From positions 1,364,001 to 1,428,000 of the forward strand of contig NZ_CP119802.1 of assembly GCF_029338355.1 (NCBI RefSeq): a DNA stretch of 64,000 nucleotides, read 5' to 3'. This document shows positions 15,651-54,483 of this stretch, piece after piece; positions within the stretch are counted from its first letter, which is position 1; every line of letters begins with the position of its first letter. This stretch comes from Halosegnis marinus. Lineage in GTDB: Archaea; Halobacteriota; Halobacteria; Halobacteriales; Haloarculaceae. A program made the translations under genes and the position numbers. The notes under the pieces were generated by a model, which did not search any database, had not been told where the DNA came from, and saw only the letters and a list, made by a program, of their open reading frames with translations.

Positions 15651-15719
15651 ACCCGTCAGTCGGCGGGCGGACGGGTGAAACTACGGGGCGGTCGCTCGCC
15701 GTGCGGGAACGGAAAGGAC

Positions 15720-15823
15720 GCCACCTCCAGGGCTCGAACCTGGGACCACCTCGTGTCTGCGGCCCGCGGGGTGACCCCACGCACCTTAACAGCGAGGTGC
15801 TCTACCAACTGAGCTAAGGCGGC
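15720..15823 (-). tRNA. tRNA-Asn (GTT) with a 32-base intron
   Basis: Exons fold to GCCGCCT/AGGTGGC acceptor (one G-T pair), GCTC/GAGC D stem, CCTCG/CGAGG anticodon stem and CCAGG/CCTGG T stem; the loop reads CTGTTA then A38. Anticodon GTT is at 15788-15790. A 32-base intron (15755-15786) lies at the canonical 37/38 position. It contains a strong CGTGGGG-TCA-CCCCGCG hairpin and a TGCG/CGCA pairing that could form part of the bulge-helix-bulge for the splicing endonuclease. No CCA encoded; the CCA-adding enzyme gene starts 100 bases away. Confidence 0.9.
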
Positions 15824-24583: not shown

Positions 24584-24654
24584 GGGTCCGTGGTCTAGTG
24601 GTATGACGTCTCCCTTACAAGGAGAAGGCCGGTGGTTCAATTCCGCCCGGACCC
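24584..24654 (+). tRNA. tRNA-Val (TAC)
   Basis: 71 bases with acceptor GGGTCCG/CGGACCC, anticodon stem TCTCC/GGAGA and loop CTTACAA (anticodon TAC), T stem GGTGG/CCGCC with TTCAATT loop. No intron and no CCA. A degenerate copy of its 3' end recurs 91 bases downstream. Confidence 0.93.
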
Positions 24655-24686
24655 ACTTCTGTCGAGCGCGGCGAGACGAGTGGCAG

Positions 24687-24745
24687 CGGAATCGAAGCAG
24701 GGGGACGCGAGGACGTCCGCCCGTGGTTCGATTCCGCCCGGGCCC
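24687..24745 (+). repeat. Inverted and direct partial copies of the tRNA-Val 3' end
   Basis: GTGGTTCGATTCCGCCCGGG begins at 24723 and, with CCC (to 24745), matches tRNA-Val 24632-24654 at 21 of 23 bases. In between, CGGAATCGAA (24687-24696) is the exact reverse complement of TTCGATTCCG (24727-24736). So the tRNA is followed by an inverted T-arm and then a direct T-arm/acceptor fragment. The fragment lacks D and anticodon arms and cannot be a tRNA. Confidence 0.75.
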
Positions 24746-24810: not shown

Positions 24811-24883
24811 GCCGCCTTAGCTCAGACTGGGAGAGCACTCGACTGAAGATCGAGCTGTCCCCCGTTCAAATCGGGGAGGCGGC
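24811..24883 (+). tRNA. tRNA-Phe (GAA)
   Basis: 73 bases: acceptor GCCGCCT/AGGCGGC, D stem GCTC/GAGC, anticodon stem CTCGA/TCGAG with loop CTGAAGA (anticodon GAA), T stem CCCCG/CGGGG. A follows as discriminator; CCA is not encoded. A partial copy of its 3' end is found 154 bases downstream. Confidence 0.95.
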
Positions 24884-24947
24884 ATTTTCCTGCGAACCAG
24901 CGAGGGAGCGGAGCGACCGAGTCGTGAGCAGTGAAAATGCTCCCGAG

Positions 24948-25036
24948 CCGATTCGAACACGAGAGTCGCAGCCCGCGGAGGCGAACGGAGTGAGCCGAGC
25001 AGGACCGTCTCTCACCTGTTCAAATCGGGGAGGCGG
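24948..25036 (+). repeat. Inverted and direct partial copies of the tRNA-Phe 3' end
   Basis: GTTCAAATCGGGGAGGCGG at 25018-25036 exactly repeats tRNA-Phe 24864-24882 (19 bases, offset 154). CCGATTCGAAC at 24948-24958 is the inverted T-arm with one mismatch. The spacer also carries TGCGAAC, CAGCGAG, GAGTCGCAGC and GACCGTCTC blocks shared with the spacer after tRNA-Arg. No coding potential. Confidence 0.8.
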
Positions 25037-54115: not shown

Positions 54116-54187
54116 GTCCTGGTAGGGTAGTGGACTATCCTCTTGGCTTGCGGAGCCAGGGACCGGAGTTCAAATCTCCGTCAGGAC
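54116..54187 (+). tRNA. tRNA-Arg (GCG)
   Basis: 72 bases: acceptor GTCCTGG/TCAGGAC with one G-T pair, D stem GGGT/ATCC, anticodon stem TTGGC/GCCAG with loop TTGCGGA (anticodon GCG), T stem CGGAG/CTCCG with TTCAAAT. G follows as discriminator; no intron, no CCA. Its 3' end is echoed twice downstream. Confidence 0.93.
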
Positions 54188-54260
54188 GTTTCTGCTGCGA
54201 ACAATCCAGCGAGCACCGCGCAGCGTGTGCTCGCGCGTAGTGAGCGGCGAAACGCCGCGC

Positions 54261-54342
54261 GGAGATTTGAGCCAGCGAGTCGCAGCGCCCGAGCGGAGCG
54301 AGGGCGACCGTCTCGCCCAGTTCAAATCTCCGTCAGGACGTT
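54261..54342 (+). repeat. Inverted and direct partial copies of the tRNA-Arg 3' end
   Basis: The 24 bases 54167-54190 recur exactly at 54319-54342 (AGTTCAAATCTCC...GGACGTT), offset 152. GGAGATTTGA (54261-54270) is the inverted T-arm. The spacer has TGCGAAC, CAGCGAG, GAGTCGCAGC and GACCGTCTC blocks in the same order as the one after tRNA-Phe. A third fragment, CTCCGTCAGGAC, lies at 54424-54435. Confidence 0.8.
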
Positions 54343-54483
54343 CACTTCGTTCGTGACCTGACGAAGTCAGGTCACTCTCTCGTTCACGCCCTGACGTGGT
54401 CGTGTTCGCTGCGCTCACACGACCTCCGTCAGGACTCGCAACCGTTCTGTTTCCCCCCGAACACCGCGTTCGACTTCCCGTCG
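54343..54483. other. Rest of the tRNA-Arg downstream region
   Basis: Holds small inverted repeats (GACCTGACGAAGTCAGGTC at about 54355-54373 is nearly perfect; TCGTGTTCGC...GCGCTCACACGA nearby) and a third tRNA-Arg end fragment (54424-54435). No gene recognised. Confidence 0.5.

Follow-up and report, generated by a model that had tools for sequence, protein, structure and literature searches.

Behind tRNA genes of the haloarchaeon Halosegnis marinus there recurs a short non-coding cassette that repeats the 3' end of the gene in front of it, first in inverted and then in direct orientation, and this cassette probably belongs to a family of non-autonomous mobile mini-elements of haloarchaea that copy their own landing site. 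It was noticed in a stretch of 64,000 nucleotides (contig NZ_CP119802.1, positions 1,364,001 to 1,428,000), referred to below as the window, which forms part of a genome of 2.81 Mb (G000). The case rests on a conserved core, arms that match their own target, a sharply bounded duplication, filled and empty sites, a nearly identical linker at different tRNA kinds, and targets at the ends of protein genes, all read from sequence, while transposition itself is something that we infer.

The echoes of tRNA 3' ends in the window are confirmed, on a scale far beyond that of the initial annotation. For tRNA-Phe, the window contains exactly two copies of the 19-base block GTTCAAATCGGGGAGGCGG, one inside the tRNA (24864-24882) and one at 25018-25036 (offset 154), and behind tRNA-Arg(GCG) 24 of 24 bases are repeated (54167-54190 recurring at 54319-54342, offset 152); at tRNA-Val(TAC) the reported offset of 91 holds but the copy is not exact, with 24 of 27 bases identical. 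Inverted T-arms are present at all three genes (Table 1), and the kinship claimed for the Phe and Arg spacers is borne out by 109 identities over 167 columns, with an alignment score of 43.5, the highest of 300 shuffles being 11.5. The plan exists at these three genes but is not confined to them, as a downstream scan found it at seven further tRNAs of G000, namely Asp, Ser(GGA), Ser(CGA), Glu(CTC), Arg(CCT), Arg(TCT), and one Met. An echo matching at least 15 of 20 positions follows 10 of 42 tRNAs in G000, 10 of 41 in its congener G002, and 9 of 40 in its congener G004 (42 of 44, 41 of 43, and 40 of 42 tRNAs being counted, the remainder having either no T-loop match or no call by ARAGORN, and the 42 of G000 including one spurious antisense tRNA call, in L021). 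Together this makes 29 of 123 tRNAs, against 1 of 615 shuffled controls, which excludes chance on the genome-wide scale.

From 5' to 3', the order is tRNA, linker, inverted arm A', core hairpin, and direct arm A, in units of approximately 90-165 nt that have no coding capacity. The left cassette end, next to the tRNA, is not conserved in sequence; the linker, mostly 30-80 nt long, often has a hairpin with a T-run at its start, and blocks resembling GARC and GYGAG occur in 122 of 146 linkers. A' is the reverse complement of the T-loop and some of the T-stem, sometimes also of the acceptor, and A runs from the T-loop through the last tRNA base (approximately 21 nt). Between them lies a hairpin consisting of CAGGGA, a stem, and GACCGTGG, in which the GA preceding CCGTGG is retained in 161 of 168 cases, and other core subtypes occur, such as the GAGTCGCAGC...GACCGTCTC form shared by Phe and Arg(GCG). 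The inner stem of the core covaries: among 45 sequences (of 46 distinct 44-mers, one having been left out by oversight), one pair is C-G in 26, G-C in 18, and G-U in 1, and 79 cells of the structure show changes on both sides, compared with 30 on shuffling.

That a common cassette is fitted in each case to its own tRNA, as had been proposed from the window, holds across the collected loci. Arm A equals the last 20 nt of its own tRNA at 20 of 20 positions in 85 of 150 cassettes, and 112 of the 150 agree at 19 positions or more, whereas against a random tRNA of another kind the commonest value is 14. For A', the score against the own tRNA is 3.63, and permutation over 147 of the 150 gives 2.81 (standard deviation 0.10). 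The copy also ends sharply: identity between A and its target is 0.86-0.96 outside the positions fixed by the search pattern, whose fixed letters inflate identity in the T-loop, still 0.86 on the final base of the tRNA, and 0.60 at the position that follows (n = 140).

A strict search pattern matched 34 of 59 genomes, that of the window included, while the reversed pattern matched none of the same 59. By taxonomy, 22 of 33 genomes from within the order gave a match, G000 again included, and none of 163 others from the phylum did; at least 120 loci lie in named genomes, and a covariance model gave matches in 27 of 30 genomes. Out of 160 strict matches, 150 stand behind a recognised tRNA (31 kinds in all), 7 at the cut starts of contigs, and 3 behind 3' pieces of tRNAs. 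The model matches checked in G000, G011, G013, and G042 lie behind tRNAs in 40 of 43 cases (38 by coordinates, two on inspection); two matches in G013 that appeared to lie off any tRNA were rejected as such, the Rfam search having missed an intron-bearing tRNA-Trp and a tRNA-Pro. Among further model matches, of which 49 of 66 were classified, 48 lie behind tRNAs and the remaining one begins close to the end of its contig, where a tRNA-Glu 3' terminus can be seen. The cassettes had no Rfam match at the gathering score, the sole matches being to tRNA.

Comparison with the congeners shows filled and empty sites. Downstream of the echo, the sequence can be aligned to the empty site of the orthologue at Ser(TGA) (scores 70 and 40), Leu(CAA) (34 and 33), and Arg(TCT) (47 and 32), more weakly at Ser(GGA) (21), and, judged by eye, at Thr(CGT) as an additional case. 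Moreover, the linker at Val(TAC) of G004 is almost the same as that at Pro(TGG) of G002 (local score 46), whereas the Val cassette of G002 itself has a different linker; the near-identity across two genes indicates that the cassette crosses tRNA kinds.

The point that speaks decisively for a mobile element directed at a sequence motif is the occurrence of cassettes at the ends of protein genes, with arms that copy those genes. One model match, G042:C12:173554, sits at the 3' terminus of a gene encoding an HD-domain protein (PF01966, E 3e-16), where the gene ends in GGTTTGAGGACGAAATTTAG, A' reads TTTCGTCCTCAAATC, and A reads GGTTCGAGGATGAGGTTTAG (16/20); the orthologue in G057 ends in GGTTCGAAGACGAAATTTAG and has the inverted arm TTTCGTCTTCGAA, tracking its own codons, while in G245 and G044 the HD gene has no cassette. 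With a pattern built to leave out ordinary T-loops, 48 of 392 genomes from the order gave a match. Of the 30 loci returned from those 48 and read, 23 follow tRNAs and have variant or decayed echoes, 4 are at the ends of protein genes, and 3 are elsewhere, these three being labelled by eye as a tRNA-like piece, a 3' remnant of tRNA-Thr, and a 50-nt tandem array (L406). The four are the HD gene of G042 and a ChsH2-like OB-fold gene in G433, G315, and G328, in which PF01796 scores just under the cut-off in all three and PF12172 just over it in one. In G315, this gene is followed by three tandem units whose arms carry its own codon GAG, where G433 has GAA, and an orthologue in L146 has neither the GGTTC motif nor a cassette. 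What the targets share is GGTTYRA followed by approximately 17-22 nt up to a harmless point, either the tRNA 3' end or a position just past the stop codon, a pattern that fits the trace expected of an inserting element which duplicates its target without killing its host.

Two side observations belong here. In G328 (L397), the OB-fold protein ends in SRD before the stop where FEPV is usual, and the added residues overlap the inverted arm, as if the protein end had been altered by the cassette. The array in L406 (G473:C1:1471931-1472409) repeats a 50-nt unit, made of a minimal core and arms, at least 10 times at a place with no recognised tRNA.

As we picture it, the moving part of the proposed mini-element would be the linker hairpin together with the hairpin core (CAGGGA...GACCGTGG), which would land at GGTTCRA, a motif found in the tRNA T-loop and, where codons happen to spell it, close to the 3' terminus in a few protein genes. 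Landing would leave a copy of approximately 17-22 nt from the motif onward, the direct arm A, perhaps through copying or the repair of a staggered cut starting at the motif, and the element would acquire an inverted copy of much of that stretch, A', perhaps by hairpin snap-back copying, with an enzyme presumably acting in trans on a folded single strand. Because the duplicated stretch ends exactly at the tRNA 3' end, the tRNA gene would be regenerated intact, and because in protein genes the copied stretch includes the stop codon, insertion there would be harmless; the seeming preference for tRNA 3' ends might then come down to a motif, a ruler, and survival. A more specific version, which we offer tentatively and regard as possible rather than likely, is that a hairpin-cored single strand anneals through its 3' end (GTGGTTC) at any GGTTCRA and copies the next approximately 20 nt as a direct and a snap-back inverted arm, leaving the host gene intact, so that the cassettes would be selfish DNA spread throughout the order, with the T-loop as its safe harbour.

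Several points weigh against reading the cassettes as mobile. Movement itself was not observed, only filled and empty sites between species, and no transposase was found. Pairs of filled and empty sites with alignable flanks are few, the others being too diverged to inform; at Leu(CAA), only the G002 case is clean, since the start of the G004 cassette also resembles the empty site (32 against 34). Loss through recombination between the direct arms would mimic a lack of gain. Among the protein genes, G328 is the weaker case, as its gene end and A differ. Where A has decayed, A' matches the target in 20 cases, A in 6, and neither in 5 (from 146 cassettes, after removal of duplicates and short gaps, a set also used for folding), which is not what simple snap-back copying of A would give. 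We had also considered pairing between A' and A as the force that maintains the arms, and this is unsupported because A' follows the target and not the decayed A.

Among other explanations, the one that survives best, though we consider it unlikely, is a functional RNA domain co-transcribed with the precursor tRNA and serving in processing, as a decoy, or as a small RNA, comparable to the rtT RNA behind tyrT of Escherichia coli. There, repeats behind the tRNA gene each start with the last approximately 19 bp of that tRNA; to our knowledge, this concerns one locus, with no inverted copy and no spread over tRNA kinds. The covariation of the core stem is what such a domain would lead one to expect, as is the better folding of the sense strand relative to its complement, seen for the part denoted M in 144 of 146 cases and, among linkers, in 102 as opposed to 43, the control being flat (74 against 71). 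Part of the strand bias of M is, however, inflated by the search pattern, which partly fixes M, so that the linker figure is the independent measure, and the linker bias is compatible with either RNA or a folded single strand of DNA; in the outer stem, G.T and A.C counts are about equal (62 and 56) and therefore lend RNA no support. The initial annotation had entertained both a transcript fold serving the tRNA and a decoy for tRNA-processing enzymes, and neither is supported: 32 of 42 tRNAs examined in G000 have no cassette, presence varies between congeners at orthologous genes, and the arms at protein genes copy those genes rather than tRNA, which disfavours a tRNA-specific role. Its third suggestion, the footprint of an element that targets and copies tRNA 3' ends, is the one upheld by presence and absence at orthologues, the sharp duplication of approximately 21 nt, and the gene-copying arms.

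Somewhat less probable still is that template switching during replication at T-arm hairpins produced local inverted and direct copies with no mobile unit involved. The inverted-then-direct order and the tandem arrays (L292, L306, L406) are arrangements that template switching and unequal exchange typically produce, but the core is conserved in every cassette and a nearly identical linker stands at two tRNA kinds, so that an incoming sequence is needed, and the restriction of the cassette to one order also speaks against this reading.

Another reading takes the cassettes for scars or attachment sites left by viruses or plasmids that integrated through a tyrosine integrase and were later lost. 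In its favour, archaeal integrases prefer the 3' ends of tRNAs according to the part of PMC8371274 drawn on here, and two cassettes lie at a distance from a tRNA, one in G042 at 1.7 kb behind tRNA-Val and one in G000 that has a 3' piece of tRNA-Arg(TCG) 9.2 kb behind that tRNA. We nevertheless hold this to be improbable: 31 tRNA kinds share one and the same core although the ends copied differ, one core per element being the expectation for such scars; the protein-gene targets differ in sequence; and the copies mostly lie 90-165 nt apart with no integrase or element between them. Absence of the cassette at some orthologues, which the initial annotation had coupled with integrase or phage remnants as the mark of ordinary attachment sites, was indeed found at these genes, but all integrase (PF00589) matches of G000 lie, by coordinates, more than 70 kb from its ten cassettes. 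The G000 match at C1:2127216 was dropped as an attachment end because none of the six proteins scanned in the 9.2-kb stretch is an integrase (five match Pfam families), and we regard this cassette as merely displaced for the same reason; the stretch (L320, G000:C1:2126500-2137500) contains ABC transporter genes and looks like a later insertion separating tRNA-Arg(TCG) from its own cassette. All viral contigs together gave one match, beside a complete tRNA; BLAST searches of window positions 54150-54460 against plasmids and 54150-54345 against phages gave no match; and the matches listed for L292 against plasmids, like the best 20 of 477 for L306 against phages, are to tRNAs or are short ones outside the hairpin units.

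Machinery of the casposase, Cas1-Cas2, or IS200/IS605 (Y1) type is the least probable author of the insertions, to the point of being very doubtful. Y1 enzymes do act on hairpins of single-stranded DNA. Casposase integrates at tRNA 3' ends with duplications of 14-15 bp and accepts single-stranded DNA and RNA (PMC6977970, in part). The cassette duplication is, however, approximately 21 nt at tRNAs and no terminal inverted repeats were seen in cassettes. Of 59 genomes, 42 lack a Cas1 match and 31 a Y1 match, G000 being in both groups, and G016, which has three strict cassette matches, contains neither enzyme; a resident casposase or Y1 enzyme is not consistent with these absences.

Among known systems, REP and REPIN sequences resemble the cassettes as short, dispersed hairpin repeats without genes of their own. 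They differ in having fixed GTAG/CGTC tags and, in the portions of the sources used, no target-derived arms. A classical miniature inverted-repeat transposable element (MITE) likewise has a target duplication (here approximately 21 nt at tRNAs) and no coding capacity, but the terminal inverted repeats of a known transposon are not seen in the cassette, whose A' and A are target copies that change with the target. Casposons share insertion at tRNA 3' ends with target duplication, and differ, within the sections of PMC6977970 consulted, in their 14-15 bp duplication, terminal inverted repeats, own genes, Cas1-type integrase, and lack of an inverted target copy; a casposon derivative is not indicated in G000, which has no match to a Cas1-type integrase, though a transient source is conceivable, nor is a PATE-like derivative of IS200/IS605, as G000 has no Y1 match and the cassette has a duplication. 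The MITEs, PATEs, and SMRs of Haloquadratum walsbyi are likewise transposase-free haloarchaeal mini-elements, some with an unknown mobiliser, and precise deletion mediated by repeats is described along with them; yet terminal inverted repeats bound the MITEs and the SMRs, the SMRs and the PATEs leave no target duplication, and none is described, in the relevant parts of PMC3119063, with target-copied arms. The literature searched held no description of the cassette family, the nearest being a remark on partial tRNAs adjoining full tRNAs in Haloferax gibbonsii LR2-5 (PMC7921747); these are probably in part the same thing, although the portion of that account available to us has no cassette, hairpin, family, or protein-gene target. 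Further comparison drew on parts of PMC8371274, PMC9897764, PMC6977970, and PMC3733652.

Table 1. Coordinates, in window positions, of the cassettes and their target tRNAs
Feature	Position	Strand	Remark
tRNA-Val(TAC), target	24584..24656	+	copied part is the last ~21 nt, 24634-24654
Val cassette (linker, inverted arm, core, direct arm)	24657..24745	+	covariance model match 24681-24742, E 5e-9
Val inverted arm A' GCGGAATCGAA	24686..24696	+	
Val direct arm A, imperfect echo of tRNA-Val 3' end	24725..24745	+	
tRNA-Phe(GAA), target	24811..24884	+	
Phe cassette	24885..25036	+	
Phe linker hairpin TTTTC...GAAAA	24885..24938	+	computed fold
Phe inverted arm A' CCGATTCGAACA	24948..24959	+	
Phe core, right side GACCGTCTCTCACCT	25003..25017	+	
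Phe direct arm A, 19/19 echo	25018..25036	+	
tRNA-Arg(GCG), target	54116..54188	+	
Arg cassette	54189..54340	+	weak model match 54256-54336
Arg inverted arm A' GCGGAGATTTGAGCC	54259..54273	+	
Arg core, right side GACCGTCTCGCCC	54306..54318	+	
Arg direct arm A, exact echo	54319..54340	+	
Class II unit after Arg echo	54341..54437	+	inverted acceptor piece 54388-54396, direct piece 54424-54435; by eye

Apart from the cassettes, units that we call class II (L018, L013, and the one in Table 1) stand behind tRNAs and copy only the acceptor end, in both inverted and direct orientation; that behind tRNA-Arg(CCG) of G000 (L018) comprises several tandem repeats. On the minus strand of the window, 15719-15823 holds an intron-bearing tRNA with an Rfam match, which ARAGORN assigns to Asn when its intron option is used and which the first ARAGORN scan had missed.

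If the cassettes are indeed mobile mini-elements, approximately a quarter of the tRNA genes of G000 (10 of the 42 examined) would bear a mobile element that has no name so far and that is found in nearly every relative tested. A rule of safe sites, combining the universal T-loop with a duplication of approximately 21 nt, would then explain targeting of tRNA 3' ends with no machinery specific to tRNA, and raises the question of which enzyme copies a target in both orientations. The family may also account for the partial tRNAs that haloarchaeal annotations show beside full ones, and it cautions against taking these for prophage scars.
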